Shown here one piece after another: positions 30,557 through 49,683 of a DNA stretch of 60,783 bases; position 1 is the first letter of the stretch, and every line of letters starts with the position of its first letter. The notes below the pieces were generated by a model, which saw nothing but the letters and a program-made list of their open reading frames with translations, was not told where the DNA came from and did not search any database. The DNA is from Candidatus Obscuribacterales bacterium (GTDB lineage: Bacteria; Cyanobacteriota; Vampirovibrionia; Obscuribacterales; Obscuribacteraceae). The position numbers were made by a program, and so were the translations under genes. The stretch covers positions 1 to 60,783 of the forward strand of contig JAGVKB010000047.1 of NCBI GenBank assembly GCA_020050835.1, in the 5' to 3' direction.

Positions 30557-31843
30557 CTAGGCAGTCGATTTCGAGAGGATCTGCTCGAGAGCCGCCTGGA
30601 GATCTGCCATTGATTGCCATCGTTTACTCGGAGATTTTGCCAGAGCGGTAAGCAGGAGCGGCTCCAGTTCAGGCGGAAACTGCAAATCTGGTCGCACGAA
30701 AGCAAGCGGCTTTACCTCCTCTTCCAGGTGCATGAACATAGTGTCTGCTGGGTTGTTGCCCAGGAATGGTGCGTAGCCGGTGACCATTTCGTATATGACA
30801 CAGCCGACAGAGTAGATGTCGGAGCGCTCGTCGATAGGCCGGCCTCGCACCTGTTCTGGACTCATGTAAGGGGGGCTGCCGAACACACTTCCTTCGCGTG
30901 TCAGAGCGACCGCTTCCTGTCCGGCCATGTCCTTCAGTTTGCCGCAACCGAAGTCGAGTATCTTTGCGATCGGCGGTTGATCGGTTGCATTTTTCAACAT
31001 GATATTGCTCGGCTTTAGGTCGCGGTGAAGAATGCCTCGATTGTGAGCATGACTGATCGCGCTGGCTGCCTGACGAGCGATATCGAGCGCCGTGAAAGTC
31101 GGAATGTAGTCTTCCTGATAGACAACTTCGTCGACACTTTTCCCTTGAATGTACTCCATTATCATGAATGATTGTCCCCGCTCTGTTACGCCAAAGTCGT
31201 AGACGGCGGCTATATTTGGATGCTCCAAGCGGCTGATTAGTTTGGCTTCTTGCTCGAAACGCAGGCGGATCTCTTCTTTTAATCCAGGAATTAAAAGCAT
31301 TTTGATTGCAACAAGTTTGTCCAGCTTGGGATGTTTTGCCTTAAACACAATGCCGGTGCCGCCTTCACCCAGCACGCTGATAAACTCGTACTGTGAGGCG
31401 AGCGTGGTTCCCAGCAGATTGGCGCGATTCAACAGATCGCTGTTGCCGGTGCCCAACGGCTTGGGCGCTTGCGGGATGGCTGCTTGCTTCCTGAGCGTCG
31501 AACGGATGCGCGCTGATAACTCTTCGATATCGAACGGCTTGGTTACAAAGTCGTCTGCTCCGAGATCGAGCCCGAGAACCTTGTCCTTGGCCGTGTTGTG
31601 TCCAGTCAGCATCAACACTGGCGTCATGCCGCCTGTTTCTCGGAACTTTCGTAATACCTCGATGCCATTCATCCCTGGCATGTCCCAGTCGAGCACAACT
31701 AAATCGTAGTGTCCTGAGCTCAGAAGTTGCCAGCCTTGGTTGCCATCGGCTGCCTCTTCGACTGTGTACTGCTCGAATACGAGCCAGTCTTTGACCGTCG
31801 TTCGTAGTGCGGTGTCATCATCTACTAACAAGATCTTGGACAT
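30557..31843 (-). CDS. Receiver-Ser/Thr protein kinase fusion
   Basis: 428 residues from ATG 31843 (GAGG at -8; an in-frame TTG lies three bases earlier). Residues 2-120 are a receiver domain with the acidic pair Asp8/Asp9, phospho-acceptor Asp52 (VVLDWDMPG), Thr80 and Lys102 (VTKPF), all intact. From ~150 a Hanks-type kinase follows: GEGGTGIVFKA, Lys181 in AIKML, HRDLKPSN with Asp275, DFG, and GSPPYMSPEQ. No membrane segment, so it should be cytoplasmic. It joins His-Asp phosphorelay input to Ser/Thr phosphorylation output. It lies 15 bp after a four-cysteine membrane protein and ~1.3 kb after a histidine kinase on the same strand. Confidence 0.92.
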   Translation of the reverse strand: MSKILLVDDDTALRTTVKDWLVFEQYTVEEAADGNQGWQLLSSGHYDLVVLDWDMPGMNGIEVLRKFRETGGMTPVLMLTGHNTAKDKVLGLDLGADDFVTKPFDIEELSARIRSTLRKQAAIPQAPKPLGTGNSDLLNRANLLGTTLASQYEFISVLGEGGTGIVFKAKHPKLDKLVAIKMLLIPGLKEEIRLRFEQEAKLISRLEHPNIAAVYDFGVTERGQSFMIMEYIQGKSVDEVVYQEDYIPTFTALDIARQAASAISHAHNRGILHRDLKPSNIMLKNATDQPPIAKILDFGCGKLKDMAGQEAVALTREGSVFGSPPYMSPEQVRGRPIDERSDIYSVGCVIYEMVTGYAPFLGNNPADTMFMHLEEEVKPLAFVRPDLQFPPELEPLLLTALAKSPSKRWQSMADLQAALEQILSKSTA

Positions 31844-31858
31844 CAAGCCTCAATTCCG

Positions 31859-41698: not shown

Positions 41699-42145
41699 AT
41701 GCAAAATCAGCGTGCCGAGTTTAGAGAATATGAATACAAGATACAGGTCGCCGGTGCCGCTCTTTTCCTTTGCGACGACAATGCACGATTTGACGCCGCC
41801 GAGCTCTGGAGCGATATCTCCGACCAGCAAGCGTTGGTTGCAGGCGACGGCGTATTGTCCGTGCGAGCTGAACCGGACAGCAGCGTGCGTTTGCTGGTGG
41901 ATGTTCGAGAAGTTGAGCAGCTGGACCCGGACGCCGGCTTTCATCCGATTGGGCGTTGTCTGCTTGATGTTCCTTCCGGCCTGATAGTGGTAGCCGGCAG
42001 CGCTGATTTCTATGGCGATGCGGCTCGCATTCCGGTCAGACCGGCGCTCTATCAGGTAGCCGTTTACGCCGGATCGCTCGATACTATATATAGTGGCTTA
42101 CGGCGATCGCAAAATTGCTTGAAGGTAGTGCTGTCCCTCTGTTAA
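41699..42145 (+). CDS. Small cytoplasmic protein, unknown function
   Basis: 148 residues, not recognised. It appears beta-rich with no signal peptide or membrane helix (YEYKIQVAGAALFLCDD, SSVRLLVDVREVEQL, PSGLIVVAGSADF, ALYQVAVYAG). It starts 27 bp after the small membrane protein gene, so the two may be co-transcribed. Its end overlaps the end of the convergent PotD-like gene by 4 bases. Confidence 0.55.
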   Translation: MQNQRAEFREYEYKIQVAGAALFLCDDNARFDAAELWSDISDQQALVAGDGVLSVRAEPDSSVRLLVDVREVEQLDPDAGFHPIGRCLLDVPSGLIVVAGSADFYGDAARIPVRPALYQVAVYAGSLDTIYSGLRRSQNCLKVVLSLC

Positions 42146-43239
42146 TAGCACTTCAATTCTGTCCACATCCTGTCGTAGGCGAAGATTGCCGAGCCGATTT
42201 CGCCGATCTCTTCGCATTTGTCCAGGGTAGCTTGCGGCGGGTAAAGGCTCTTGCTGGCTAGCAGCTCTGGCTGGACGTATTTCAGTGCCGAATCATTGGG
42301 GGTGGCGTACCAGGTATAGTTGGCAATCGCCGCTGAAATGCGAGGCTCCATCATGAAATTTAGCCATAGATGTGCGTTTTCAGGATGCGGGGCTGACTTG
42401 GGCACACAAAGATTATCAACCCACATCGAGGCGCCGCTCTCGGGAATGATGTATTTCACGTCGCCGTTCTGCCGGGCCGCCTGTTGGGCATCGCCGCTGA
42501 AAGCCAGCGACAGCAGGCTGTCTCCGCTTGCCAGATAGACGATGACTTGATCTGACGTGTAACACATGGTAAGCGGTTTCTGTCGCTTCAATTCGGCACA
42601 TGCGGCTGCTATCTCTTCGGTCGCCACTGAATTGAGTGAGTAGCCGAGATGCTTGAGCGCCAGTCCGACAGTTTCTCGCGGGTCATCCAACAATGTCATG
42701 CGGCCGGACAGGCGCCTGTCCCAGAAGACATCCCAGTCTCTGGGCTCGTCTTTCTCATTACGCCCAAAGGCGGACTGGTTGAATCCGATTCCGGTAGTTC
42801 CAAAGGTATACGGAATCGAATACTGGCAACCAGAGTCGAAAAGCGATGTGCTGAAACGTTTTGCAATGTGCTTGAAATTGGGCAGTCTGTCCTTGTCCAG
42901 CGGCTGGAGCAGGTCCATGTTTTTCAATTGCTTGACCATGTACCCTGACGGCACGACGATATCGTAATTGGAGGCCCCGGCTTGAAACTTGGCCAGCAGC
43001 GCTTCGTTAGAAGAGACGGTGTCGTAGATGACTTTGATGCCGTAGCGTTGCTCGAACTCAGGGATGATTGCAGGGTCTATGTAGTCCGGCCAACTGTAGA
43101 CGTTCAACTGGCTGGGATCTTTCGGGGCGGAAGTTCGAATCGTGCAGCCTGCCAGGGAAAAAGCACCGCTTGCGCAAGCTGACACAGCACCGGCTAAAAA
43201 TTGTCGCCTGCTGCACCGCCGGTAGTGGCGGGGTCTCAT
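42142..43239 (-). CDS. PotD-like polyamine-type substrate-binding lipoprotein, Tat-exported
   Basis: 365 residues from ATG 43239, chosen because it overlaps the stop of the upstream receiver gene (ATGA). A twin-arginine signal SRRQFLAG (10-17) is followed by a lipobox ending at Cys32 (SLAGC), so it should be exported folded and anchored as a lipoprotein. The mature domain matches spermidine/putrescine binding proteins: LNVYSWPDYIDPAIIPEFEQRYGIKVIYDT, YDIVVPSGYMV, and WVDNLCVPKSAPHPENAHLWLNFMMEP. No permease or ATPase genes lie in the window, so it is an orphan here. Confidence 0.88.
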   Translation of the reverse strand: MRPRHYRRCSRRQFLAGAVSACASGAFSLAGCTIRTSAPKDPSQLNVYSWPDYIDPAIIPEFEQRYGIKVIYDTVSSNEALLAKFQAGASNYDIVVPSGYMVKQLKNMDLLQPLDKDRLPNFKHIAKRFSTSLFDSGCQYSIPYTFGTTGIGFNQSAFGRNEKDEPRDWDVFWDRRLSGRMTLLDDPRETVGLALKHLGYSLNSVATEEIAAACAELKRQKPLTMCYTSDQVIVYLASGDSLLSLAFSGDAQQAARQNGDVKYIIPESGASMWVDNLCVPKSAPHPENAHLWLNFMMEPRISAAIANYTWYATPNDSALKYVQPELLASKSLYPPQATLDKCEEIGEIGSAIFAYDRMWTELKCY

Positions 43240-43637
43240 TCCGGGCTTTCCTCGGGGCGTGACTGCTTTCGCTCTTTCAGATATGGGCTGATGGCTTGCA
43301 AAAACTGGTGGGTGCTGACCGGTCTGGTGATGAACCGGTCGGCTCCCAGTGCCAATCCCGCTTGTTGCAGGCTGGAGTCCTTGCTGGGGCACACGAAGAC
43401 AAAGGGGATGTTTCGGAGCTCCTCGTCTGCTTTAACTTCACGTAAAAGGTCCAGACCGTTGCCGTCCACCATTTCATGGCTAGACAGGATCAAGTCGGGC
43501 AAACTCTTATGGGCAAGAAACAAGCCGAGCGAGATGCTTGTAGCCGGACTTACCTCGCAGTCGAGCGGGCCGAGGACCGACCGAGCCAAGTCGGTAGTGG
43601 CGCGAGAATTGCCGATCACCAAGACACGTATGGACAT
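43236..43637 (-). CDS. Degenerate receiver-domain protein (pseudo-receiver)
   Basis: 133 residues with receiver-fold spacing, but the phosphorylation chemistry is lost. Compared with the intact receiver at 30557-31843, the acidic pair is Gly9-Asn10, the acceptor Asp is Ser53 (LILSSHEM), the Thr is Cys83 (FVFVCPS), and the Lys is Arg105 (FITRPV). It cannot be phosphorylated in the usual way and may act as a binding or scaffolding domain. Its stop overlaps the start of the PotD-like gene by 4 bases, so their translation is coupled. Confidence 0.82.
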   Translation of the reverse strand: MSIRVLVIGNSRATTDLARSVLGPLDCEVSPATSISLGLFLAHKSLPDLILSSHEMVDGNGLDLLREVKADEELRNIPFVFVCPSKDSSLQQAGLALGADRFITRPVSTHQFLQAISPYLKERKQSRPEESPE

Positions 43638-43774: not shown

Positions 43775-44341
43775 TTATTTGCCGGAAGTTTTGGCGTCCG
43801 GATTCTTAACAGGCAGCCCGATCGCGCTGGCGCCTTTTTCAGTCTCTTTGACTGCGCCCTTGCCGAGCTTCTCAGCGCCTTTCAGCACGTCCTTGGTGAC
43901 GGTTTCGGTGCCCTTGACCGCGCCTTTACCGACCTTTTCAGTGCCCTTCGCTACGTCTTTGGTAATCTTGCCAGTGCCTTTGACGAGGTCTTTTCCTACC
44001 GTTTCGGTTCCCTTGACGGTATCCTTGCCAACCTTCGCTGTCCCACCGACAACGTCTTTGCCAAGTGTTTCGGTGCCCTTGCCGACTTCCTTGACGCCTT
44101 TGCCTAACGCTCCGGCTCCCTTTTTAGCGCCGTGCTCGAGTGCTTCAGCGCCCTTTTCTAATTCGGAACCGATGCCCTTAATCACCTTGCCGGTACCCTT
44201 GCCGACCGTTTCGGCGCCATTCTTAATGTCAGAGCCGACTGCTTTTGCTCCCTTTTCCAACTTATTCTCATCGGCTATCGCCGCACTGAAACTCACGGTT
44301 GTCAATGCAGTCAGGGCTAGCAGCGCTACGCTTTTTTTCAT
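43775..44341 (-). CDS. Exported Lys/Gly-rich 11-mer repeat protein (LEA-like)
   Basis: 188 residues. A signal peptide covers 1-23 (MKKSVALLALTALTTVSFSAAIA). The remainder is a tandem of about a dozen ~11-residue units of the type KGTETVGKDVV, with Gly and Lys at fixed positions and a recurring Val/Ile/Leu. This gives a hydrophilic, amphipathic, probably disordered chain like group 3 LEA or hydrophilin proteins, which protect membranes and proteins during drying. No homologue recognised. Ribosome site AGGTTTAGGA is upstream. Function inferred from composition only. Confidence 0.7.
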   Translation of the reverse strand: MKKSVALLALTALTTVSFSAAIADENKLEKGAKAVGSDIKNGAETVGKGTGKVIKGIGSELEKGAEALEHGAKKGAGALGKGVKEVGKGTETLGKDVVGGTAKVGKDTVKGTETVGKDLVKGTGKITKDVAKGTEKVGKGAVKGTETVTKDVLKGAEKLGKGAVKETEKGASAIGLPVKNPDAKTSGK

Positions 44342-44642: not shown

Positions 44643-45677
44643 ATGACTCAATCCACCAACGAACCTGATAACCGCCGCCATCGTATGACGGTTCAACATG
44701 CAACTCCGGAGCGAAAGCTGATCGAAGAGATGCTGACAGAGGTTCAACGATCCGCCGACAGGCTGATCGAGTTGCCAATAGAAATTCCTGGCTTCCCAGA
44801 GCCATTCATGCTTACTGCCGAGCGAGAAATGGGGGGAGACCGTCCGATTTGGACGCTCCTTTCCGGACAAGGGGCGGGCCGGACCGAGCATTGGAGCTAT
44901 ACGTTTTCGGATACCGACATGATTCATGAGATTCTGTCGCTTTCTCTGTCCACGCCGCCGGCGGCAACAGGCTCGGGTGTCGAGGCGAAATCAATGGTTG
45001 ATGTAAAAGACAGCTTGCTTGATCCGCTGCCTTTCCTCGAAAAGAATCAACCAAATATATTGCTGGGGCATATTTTGGTCGACTCCGGAATCATTCCGGA
45101 GCCGGTGTTGGATGCAGCGCTCAATCTGCAGGAATTGGCCAGGAGCGGGGAGCTCGATGGTGACGAGGCGACTGAAACATTGCGAACAATGCATGTGCAT
45201 GGCGTCGACTTGCAAGAGGCAGTAGCCAGCATCAAGAGCAAGCGGCAAAAGAAAGCAACACCGGATGCTGTCGACCTCTTGCAAAAGGCCGGGTATGTCA
45301 ACGAGCAAGATATCAGCAAAGCAAAAACAGTGGTCGAGCAGCTTCGCAAGGCTGGGTTGGATACAGCCCAGGGAGCCGAACTGGCAAAGTCCTTGATCGA
45401 CTTGTTAAAGATCTCCGGATTGATCGGCGATCAGGACCTCAAGAGGTCTGCCGTTGCCGCGGCCGATTATCCGCTCGATATGTGTAAGGCTCTTCTGTCG
45501 TCCGGGGCGGTCGATTCTTTGACTTTCGAGGTCGCTTCCAGGTTCATAAAACATGTCAGGCGCGGGCAGTTTAAACAGGAGCAAGCGATCATCGCTTTGC
45601 ACTACTGCCAGCGCTGCCGGACTGGCTTTGAAGAAACCGTTCATGCTATGGGCTGGCAGGTGCCGAGCGAATTCTGA
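44643..45677 (+). CDS. MshEN-like repeat protein, paralogue 1
   Basis: 344 residues, no signal peptide. The N-terminal domain (~20-102) is unrecognised (ADRLIELPIEIPGFPEPF, DTDMIHEILSLS). Residues 140-163 (LLGHILVDSGIIPEPVLDAALNLQ) match the MshEN/GspE N-terminal helical motif, LGxxLVxxGxIxxxxLxxAL. Weaker versions recur at ~211-235, ~252-272 and ~282-303. The C-terminus contains VRRGQFKQEQAIIALHYCQRCRTGFEETVHAMGW. A second copy with the same architecture follows at 45804-46985. MshEN domains in type II secretion/pilus ATPases can bind cyclic di-GMP; that role is only a hypothesis here, as the leading Arg is missing. Confidence 0.7.
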   Translation: MTQSTNEPDNRRHRMTVQHATPERKLIEEMLTEVQRSADRLIELPIEIPGFPEPFMLTAEREMGGDRPIWTLLSGQGAGRTEHWSYTFSDTDMIHEILSLSLSTPPAATGSGVEAKSMVDVKDSLLDPLPFLEKNQPNILLGHILVDSGIIPEPVLDAALNLQELARSGELDGDEATETLRTMHVHGVDLQEAVASIKSKRQKKATPDAVDLLQKAGYVNEQDISKAKTVVEQLRKAGLDTAQGAELAKSLIDLLKISGLIGDQDLKRSAVAAADYPLDMCKALLSSGAVDSLTFEVASRFIKHVRRGQFKQEQAIIALHYCQRCRTGFEETVHAMGWQVPSEF

Positions 45678-45803: not shown

Positions 45804-46985
45804 ATGGATCTCAAGAGACGAGCGATGGACGACAGGGCAGACAAGAAAGAACCGACTAAGCACACCCGTGAGCGACTGACGGTGCAGACCGCCGCGCCTC
45901 CCCAAGATCTGATATATGACATGTGGTGGCGAGCGCAAAGAGCTCCAGGCCGGCTAATCGAGCTACCGTTTGATGTACCTGGTTGTCAGACGATGACATT
46001 GACCGTCGAGACTAACATCGATGGCGAGCGACCGCAGTGGACCTTTTATTCTGGAGATGGCGTATTGTGGAGCTATGTCCTGAGCGACACGGAGATGATC
46101 TGGGAGATCCTGACGCTTTCTATTACACCGGCGGGTGGCCAAAGTTCGAGCCGAGAGCCATCCGCACCGCTGCCGACCAAACCGATTACTCCTGCCAAGG
46201 TGAGTGCAACGCCGGCTGCAGCACCGGCCAAGGAGAGTCGCAGTTCGGCGCCGGAGCCTGCCGCTGCGCCCCCGACCAAACCGGCCGCGGCCAAGCCGAA
46301 GGAGTCTGGCAAGAACGTTTCGCCGGTTTCCTATATCCAGCAAGGCGTACCGAATCTCATGTTAGGACGCATTCTGGTCGATTCCGGATTGATTCCCAAG
46401 GATGTTCTGGAGGCGGCGCTCAATTTGCAGGAGCTCGTTCGCAAATCAGGCTTGACCCCGGTGGAAGCTACCGATGTGCTTCGAAAGGTACAGACGCAGG
46501 GCAAGAAGATTGAGCAAGTAATCGCCGAGCTGAAAGGTCAAGAGTATTCCGTTCCCGAGCCTCCTAAATCGGATGCGGTCGATCTGCTGAAACAAGCTGG
46601 ATTCGTAAGCGAACAGGACATCATCAAAGCCAAGCATGTTGCCGTGCAGTTGCAAAAAGCCGGACTGGATTCGCCCAAGGGAGCAGAAACTGCTAAGTCG
46701 CTGCTCGAGCTGTTGCGGCTGGCTGGATTTATTACTGATGACGATATCCGGAAGGCGTCTGCCAGCAGCTCCAACAATCCGACCGAAATTTGCAAAGCGC
46801 TGCTGTCGTCCGGAGCGATTGACGCGCTTTCATTTGAAGTGGCATCACGCTTCGTAAAGCATGTGCGCCGGCAGACTTTTAAGCAAGAGCAGGCGATTAT
46901 CGCTCTGCATTACTCGCAACGGTCACGAACCGGATTTGAAGAGACCGTGCACGCGCTCGGCTGGAAAGTGCCGATCGAATCTTAA
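45804..46985 (+). CDS. MshEN-like repeat protein, paralogue 2
   Basis: 393 residues; ATG 45825 is an alternative that fits the N-terminus of paralogue 1 better. It shares the full architecture of the preceding gene: the N-terminal domain (GRLIELPFDVPGC, SDTEMIWEILTLS), the strong MshEN motif LMLGRILVDSGLIPKDVLEAAL (185-206), a block with DAVDLLKQAGFVSEQDIIKAK, then ICKALLSSGAIDALSFEVASRFVKHVRRQTFKQEQAIIALHYSQRSRTGFEETVHALGWKVP. The difference is a Pro/Ala-rich linker (~110-175). Local duplication is evident. The two are separated by 126 bp. Confidence 0.7.
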   Translation: MDLKRRAMDDRADKKEPTKHTRERLTVQTAAPPQDLIYDMWWRAQRAPGRLIELPFDVPGCQTMTLTVETNIDGERPQWTFYSGDGVLWSYVLSDTEMIWEILTLSITPAGGQSSSREPSAPLPTKPITPAKVSATPAAAPAKESRSSAPEPAAAPPTKPAAAKPKESGKNVSPVSYIQQGVPNLMLGRILVDSGLIPKDVLEAALNLQELVRKSGLTPVEATDVLRKVQTQGKKIEQVIAELKGQEYSVPEPPKSDAVDLLKQAGFVSEQDIIKAKHVAVQLQKAGLDSPKGAETAKSLLELLRLAGFITDDDIRKASASSSNNPTEICKALLSSGAIDALSFEVASRFVKHVRRQTFKQEQAIIALHYSQRSRTGFEETVHALGWKVPIES

Positions 46986-47592: not shown

Positions 47593-49683
47593 TCATTTGG
47601 ATTGCTGCTCGATAGATGCCTGTTTGCTCGCCGCAATTGACTTGGCAGTCATACCGACCTGGAATGCCTGAAGCAGGTCGCCGCGTTGATAGAGCAACTC
47701 TGAATATGTCTGCAGAATGCCGGCATAGTCACGGCTGTCTTTGCCGAGTGGACCTTTGAGGAGATCGACTGCGCTGCGGCACTGTTCGGTTGCTTCGGCG
47801 GTGAGACCTTTAGCCTTCAAGGACAGCGCTCGATAATAGTCGATAATTCCTGTCTGTAAGTCGTGATTAACCTGAAGTCTAGACCAGTACTTGCCGGCTC
47901 GATTGTAGTCGGCAAGCGCTGGAGACCAGTCGAGACGATGACGGAAAAAATCGCCGCGCTTGCTGTAGAACAAAGCGAGCGTTTCCGGTGCGATCATTCC
48001 TTCCGGAAAGCGGCCTTCGTTGAAGCGGCGCTCAATCCATTGATAACTTTTCCAGGCCCCGTTCGCATCGTTGTCGAGAAAGAAGCAATCTGCCATCCGC
48101 GCGTAGGCGTCGAACATCATTTGTGGTGGTGGTGAAGGATACATGATGTAATTGTCGATTGCATTTTGATACAACTTAGCGGCATCTTTGTAGCGACCGA
48201 GCATGTAAGAGCAGTGAGCCATTTTGGTGTAAAGCTCCGCCCAGTCCGCGCGCGCTTCGAGATCTAACGATTCGATTAACGGCTGAGAGTGAGAGTTACT
48301 CCTGCTAACCTTGACGAGCTGATCGAAATAGGTAGATGCTTGAGTGTAGTGCCCATATTTGTAGTAGAAATAGGCCGATGACTTAAGGCAGCGAGCCAGG
48401 ATTGATCGGTTGTTGGCTGCGGTCCGTCTGGCGTGATCCAAAAGTTTGGATCGCTTTATCTCTTCGATTGCAAAATCCTCTGGTGGTTGGCTATGCTCGG
48501 TTGGATAGATCGGCCAGGGTACTTCATGATAAGCCGGAAGCTTTGATGACCCGAAGAGCGAATAGGTCATCCATCCGGATAGCAGGCTGAGCACCAATAT
48601 GATTGCGGACAAGACGGAAAGGAGGCGAATCGGCAAACGTTTCCTAAGCGGAGCTGATCTGATCTTGAGCAGATCGAAATTAGCGGTCAATTGAGAGAGC
48701 CAGCTTTTGCGCAAACCGCGTGCCACGAGCTCGAGATCGTCCTTTAGCTGGGCCATAGTTTGGTAACGCTGGTCGGCACTTTTTGCCAGACATTTGAAAA
48801 CGATCTGCTCCAATTGTCCGAGCTTGGGAAGGTCTGGCTTAGTTTGAGCAAGTCCGGGGGGCAGCTCGTTGATCTGCTTGTAAATCGTATCGTAAAGGTT
48901 GCCACCTACCAGCGGCGGTGAGCCGGTTAGCGATTCATAGATCAGACATCCCATCGAATAGATGTCGGACCGGCCGTCGAGCTCGGTGCCCAAGCACTGT
49001 TCCGGACTCATGTACACCGGGCTGCCAAAGACTTCGCCGGTCTGCGTCAGCTTGAGCACGTCGCCGCCTTCCTGCGGAAGCATCTTGGCGATGCCGAAAT
49101 CGACGATTTTGACGATGTCGTAGTCATTTTCGTTGGCGGCCAGCATGATGTTGCTGGGCTTCAAGTCGCGATGTATGACGCCGTTGGTGTGCGCATGCTG
49201 CAAAGCGTCGCAGGCTTGAATGAAAATGTGCATTGCGCGCTCGACCGGCAAGGGACCGTTTTCATCAATTACTTCGGCCAGCGACTTGCCCTCCAGGCAC
49301 TCAATCACTTGATAGGCTTGAGCATCTGGAGTGATGCCGAAATCGAAAACTTTGACGATATTTTGATGAGAAAGCGTATTTGCGGTACGTGCTTCCTGTT
49401 GAAATCTCATCAAGCTTTGACTGCTGCGCACGAGATGTTTGTGCAGCATCTTAAGCGCCACGTTCTTGTTCATCAACTGGTGGCGTGCTTTGTACACCAC
49501 GCCCATGCCACCAGTTCCGAGCAAGGCAAGAATTCGATACTTATCGGCTACCAGAGTTCCGACTGCAAGTATCTCTGTCTCAGAATGAGCCGTCTTCTCG
49601 GCTGGGCCTTCTACTTGCTCCGGTTCGTTGAGATCCACAAGAAACTTTCTAAAGTATGATGGTTCACGTAGTTGTTGCAACAA
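47593..49683 (-). CDS. Membrane Ser/Thr protein kinase with C-terminal TPR region
   Basis: 696 residues from a TTG; a GTG at 49638 is an alternative and neither has a good ribosome site. The kinase domain (~48-320) has GTGGMGVVYKA, Lys78 in ALKML, HRDLKPSN with Asp173, DFGIAKML, and GSPVYMSPEQ. A transmembrane helix lies near 352-374. The outer ~310 residues are helical repeats of TPR type (YTQASTYFDQLVKV, YKDAAKLYQNAIDNY, WSPALADYNRAGKYW). The outer TPRs may sense or assemble partners that control the inner kinase. Substrate unknown. Confidence 0.92.
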   Translation of the reverse strand: MLQQLREPSYFRKFLVDLNEPEQVEGPAEKTAHSETEILAVGTLVADKYRILALLGTGGMGVVYKARHQLMNKNVALKMLHKHLVRSSQSLMRFQQEARTANTLSHQNIVKVFDFGITPDAQAYQVIECLEGKSLAEVIDENGPLPVERAMHIFIQACDALQHAHTNGVIHRDLKPSNIMLAANENDYDIVKIVDFGIAKMLPQEGGDVLKLTQTGEVFGSPVYMSPEQCLGTELDGRSDIYSMGCLIYESLTGSPPLVGGNLYDTIYKQINELPPGLAQTKPDLPKLGQLEQIVFKCLAKSADQRYQTMAQLKDDLELVARGLRKSWLSQLTANFDLLKIRSAPLRKRLPIRLLSVLSAIILVLSLLSGWMTYSLFGSSKLPAYHEVPWPIYPTEHSQPPEDFAIEEIKRSKLLDHARRTAANNRSILARCLKSSAYFYYKYGHYTQASTYFDQLVKVSRSNSHSQPLIESLDLEARADWAELYTKMAHCSYMLGRYKDAAKLYQNAIDNYIMYPSPPPQMMFDAYARMADCFFLDNDANGAWKSYQWIERRFNEGRFPEGMIAPETLALFYSKRGDFFRHRLDWSPALADYNRAGKYWSRLQVNHDLQTGIIDYYRALSLKAKGLTAEATEQCRSAVDLLKGPLGKDSRDYAGILQTYSELLYQRGDLLQAFQVGMTAKSIAASKQASIEQQSK

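Follow-up and report, generated by a model that had tools for sequence, protein, structure and literature searches.

The overlapping genes for a pseudo-receiver and a PotD-like lipoprotein in this DNA are best explained, with a probability of roughly two in three, as two functionally separate genes that were joined by one relocation. The PotD would be the lipoprotein that binds polyamines for a normal importer of the PotABCD type, the genes of which are dispersed in this lineage, and the receiver would be a docking protein that works without phosphorylation. Both genes lie on the minus strand of the window, by which we mean the whole stretch of 60,783 nucleotides that was analysed, and all of the details read from the letters in the sequence-only reading hold.

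The receiver gene (43236-43637, minus strand) encodes a single domain of 133 amino acids that matches Pfam Response_reg (PF00072) at 6.9e-11. It lacks the intact phosphorylation quintet of a canonical response regulator, since all five residues are replaced by G9, N10, S53, C83 and R105 (DD to GN, D to S, T to C and K to R). The earlier claim that every catalytic residue was lost while the fold spacing was kept holds, and an AlphaFold2 model gave a standard receiver with a complete (beta-alpha)5 fold (pLDDT 85.5); when the receiver was modelled by itself, its C-terminal tail had low confidence. The nearest folds found by Foldseek were DivK, RR468 and RpaA (TM about 0.8-0.85), and FrzS was the top pseudo-receiver among the matches. 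The receiver stop overlaps the potD start in the tetranucleotide ATGA (43236-43239, minus strand), as had been noticed from the sequence. A Shine-Dalgarno-like element, GAGGAAAG (43246-43253, minus strand), lies in the last receiver codons just before the potD ATG and places a GAGG just upstream of the overlap. Scans for promoters and terminators gave results at or below the shuffle level. Judging from this junction, the receiver and potD are probably co-transcribed here and possibly translationally coupled.

The downstream gene (42142-43239, minus strand) encodes a predicted polyamine-binding lipoprotein of 365 amino acids. It matches Pfam SBP_bac_8 (8.1e-31), and its best NCBIfam model is PotD (2e-63, residues 33-363), although the score of 214 bits is below the equivalog cut-off of 582. 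It shares full-length homology with the PotD/PotF proteins of PotABCD/PotFGHI importers (Listeria Lmo0810, 4GL0, 1.5e-73; E. coli PotD, 1POT, 3.3e-57; also 4EQB). In E. coli PotD, the polyamine is contacted by W34, E36, Y37, D168, E171, W229, W255 and D257 (PMC11414716). The aromatic and acidic contact positions are kept here as W50, Y53, D186, E189, W273, D275 and Y311, and two differ conservatively from the E. coli protein, with D52 in place of E36 and F247 in place of W229 (Phe/Tyr at this position). The N-terminal signal, CSRRQFLAGAV...LAGC, combines the twin-arginine motif (SRRQFLAG) that had been reported with a lipobox (LAGC), and TatC is encoded in the genome. The protein would be exported in folded form by Tat and anchored by lipid; there it may bind spermidine or putrescine and hand it to PotB/PotC, through which PotA, encoded elsewhere, would drive import. 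The Tat signal and lipid anchor, as well as the scattering of the genes, set it apart from the known PotD/PotF importers. The PotDs of family f1 all have the RR signal and the cysteine lipobox, with or without a receiver nearby, so that export through Tat is independent of a receiver.

The history of potD can be followed in the relatives. In 26 of them, including all three genomes of the second family, potD adjoins potA; a pucR-type regulator is found 5' of potA where the contig extends that far, and the string pucR-potA-potD is followed downstream by a methyltransferase and a GGDEF gene. We take pucR-potA-potD as the ancestral order, as this comparison of gene strings indicates. In the source genome, the corresponding locus (L126, on contig C13) has kept pucR-potA-(gap)-methyltransferase-GGDEF intact and only potD is missing. 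No second PotD copy that could account for the emptied slot was found in the genome, in which the gene at 42142-43239 is the sole potD. It appears that potD left the pucR-potA-potD operon in one clade and came to lie directly 3' of the gene for the receiver. The receiver-linked PotDs belong to one clade of nine members (support 100/97), in which the receiver is adjacent in five, separated by one gene in two and unlinked in two; between the genera that keep the adjacency, PotD is about 60% identical. A single relocation of potD next to the receiver within this nine-genome clade would be the simplest account of the pattern. Conservation of the pair across related genomes, which had been proposed as a check, was largely not observed, as the two genes are linked in only seven of the 38 receiver-bearing genomes and directly adjacent in five.

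Candidates for the other importer subunits were identified by their best NCBIfam models: PotA (C13:42543-43658), which adjoins the pucR-like regulator, PotB (C74:99977-100852) and PotC (on C141; L115:4838-5629). All four Pot proteins, PotD included, score under the strict E. coli-type cut-offs of NCBIfam. Among the first 36 family genomes, PotD and PotB occur together in 25 and are both missing from nine; the two discordant genomes (G018 and G029) are both incomplete. Their presence or absence together is the pattern of one system. The statement that no ABC transporter genes stand beside the pair is correct for the immediate neighbourhood, and there is no PF00528 permease near the window, but it does not apply to the genome, where the PotABC candidates are encoded elsewhere. 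Most of the other PF00528 proteins in the genome seem to be of the oligopeptide or molybdate type, judging by their neighbours. The regulator encoded with potA is PucR/AdeR-like (in L126 of the source genome, G000:C13, and in L074-L081), and the genes after it specify the methyltransferase and a large GAF-GGDEF-type protein. Its position with potA suggests that it controls polyamine uptake.

A different role for the pair would be regulation of uptake from the cytoplasm: the receiver, co-translated with PotD, would bind PotA/PotBC or the pucR-like regulator and tune the import. We regard this as unlikely. The ATGA overlap of two genes on the same strand speaks for it, as does the adjacency in five of the nine clade members, with near linkage in two more. 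However, genomes that have neither PotD nor PotB (G001, G005, G007, G020 and G033) also carry the receiver in conserved form; at least seven genomes encode the receiver but no PotD (in one of these, G040, PotD only was examined), and it is unlinked in most genomes that have PotD. The same receiver motif and tail occur in genomes with and without PotD, and a receiver in the cytoplasm can have no direct contact with a lipoprotein that is exported. Since the gene order around the pair is partly common to the nine-member clade, the lasting adjacency alone is weak evidence of joint function. There may nevertheless be a functional reason for the co-expression of the receiver and potD, because the adjacency extends across several genera and is kept in the source genome, with a 4-nt overlap, despite changed neighbours.

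We aligned homologs of the receiver with the same signature, encoded as standalone genes in 38 genomes. In none of the 38 is the second acidic residue retained, and the first is missing in 36; the conserved lysine is missing in 37, one of them by a gap, and is kept in one, the Thr/Ser position is lost in 33, and 21 members retain Asp at the phospho-aspartate position. A search for relatives with an intact quintet among these 38 genomes found none. Going by the alignment, the receiver cannot perform normal phosphoryl chemistry, and this is a property of the family rather than of one decayed copy. Outside the catalytic site, L6, L41, K44, P47, P78 and the terminal E133 are invariant, while N45 and R127 are each present in 37 members, with Ser at position 45 only in the copy of the window. 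The conserved elements are an alpha2 motif at residues 36-47 (FLA.KN.P) and a C-terminal tail, R127...E133. Of the 38 receivers, 36 carry the tail motif, R-x3-[ST]-[PS]-E-COOH, which is absent from all 630 further ORFs of these regions. Among closely related receiver copies of other genomes, dN/dS was 0.02-0.10, and by this measure the family is under strong purifying selection and not decaying.

The family is, as far as the scans reach, restricted to Obscuribacterales. When about 85,000 species were scanned for the motif, the matches were contigs of the Obscuribacterales type and one other, from Lachnospiraceae (26% identity), which we treated as a chance match. In a profile search of a phylum sample in which the copy of the window was the sole member of the family, it scored 166 bits, and the other sampled genomes gave at most 80 bits, from generic receivers. 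Neither the receiver family nor the receiver-PotD pair was found described in the open-access literature, and this family of standalone pseudo-receivers is apparently undescribed.

Since the family as a whole has lost the quintet but keeps a helix face and the tail constant, the receiver is most likely a phosphorylation-independent protein-docking module. It would offer its alpha2/beta3 face and the C-terminal peptide R-x3-[ST]-[PS]-E-COOH to a partner. The receiver of FrzS (2I6F/2GKG) functions without being phosphorylated, by way of a surface on which proteins dock (Bourret et al. 2025, PMC12632262), and the present family has in common with such pseudo-receivers and aspartate-less receivers the fold, the lost catalytic residues and the retained selection. 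It differs from these in being standalone and in having a lineage-specific alpha2 motif and tail, and it has lost the lysine (kept in one of 38) and the second acidic residue (kept in none) more completely than the average pseudo-receiver of that survey. The single-domain regulators DivK, CheY and RR468 are similar in length and fold (TM about 0.82-0.85) and likewise have no output domain, but they have the phosphorylation quintet and not the extra conserved C-terminal peptide. As a more specific and tentative proposal, which we hold to be less likely than not, these order-specific receivers signal by docking alone, through the alpha2 face and the C-terminal peptide to a dedicated partner, may be switched by a Ser/Thr kinase, and were recruited into a potD operon in one clade. 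A stricter dependence on kinases, in which Hanks-type enzymes, a kind that these genomes encode, phosphorylate the Ser/Thr of the [ST]-[PS]-E tail as the switch of a phospho-tuned module, seems quite unlikely to us. The antepenultimate residue is Ser/Thr in 37 of the 38 members and kinase-like genes are present in the window at 30557-31846 and 47593-49683, but the conserved Arg127 and the terminal Glu suggest a docking peptide at least equally.

The sequence-only reading had suggested that the pair may be a sensing system and not an importer; PotD would then be a non-transporting polyamine sensor that signals via the pseudo-receiver. The lack of adjoining ABC genes speaks for it, but we rejected it as very improbable, on the grounds that a full set of PotABC candidates is encoded elsewhere in the genome and PotD tracks PotB; moreover, the ancestral potD was in the pucR-potA operon, and no transmembrane protein is encoded with the pair to bridge its periplasmic and cytoplasmic halves. 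That the receiver is a pseudogene, the degenerating remnant of a response regulator, might be suggested by the loss of all five catalytic residues, but this is hardly credible and is rejected for the family in view of the dN/dS values of the relatives, the intact fold, the 38 standalone full-length members and the invariant non-catalytic positions and tail.

It is an open question by what means pseudo-receivers work in bacteria (PMC12632262). The docking receivers proposed here provide a clean natural case: they stand alone, have no phosphorylation chemistry, are strongly selected and contain short invariant stretches that hint at where the working surfaces probably lie. The pot genes call for caution, since a binding protein that looks like an orphan next to a regulator can turn out to be one subunit, relocated, of a transporter that is complete although its genes are dispersed. 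Of the present results, the family of pseudo-receivers, together with its C-terminal motif, is what most deserves to be kept.

Some further observations concern the surroundings of the receiver. In nine of the 20 unlinked loci (L083, L085, L086, L087, L088, L089, L094, L099 and L100), a divergent aldo/keto reductase gene directly adjoins the receiver, and this gene, not potD, is the commonest neighbour there. The arrangement suggests shared regulation, possibly from a shared promoter, which is too little for assigning a role. Within the window, the gene at 30557-31846 (minus strand) encodes a receiver with the full quintet fused to a Ser/Thr kinase, which makes it a useful counterpart to the pseudo-receiver that lies 12 kb from it. 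On the same strand as the receiver and 137 nt upstream of it, 43775-44341 (minus strand) encodes a secreted protein of 188 amino acids with short repeats like VGKDTVKGTETVGKD (LEA-like) and no Pfam match. Two tandem paralogs (44643-45677 and 45804-46985, plus strand) share the motif ILVDSG(I/L)IP...ALNLQEL, and related genes turn up repeatedly close to the receiver-PotD region of several genomes.
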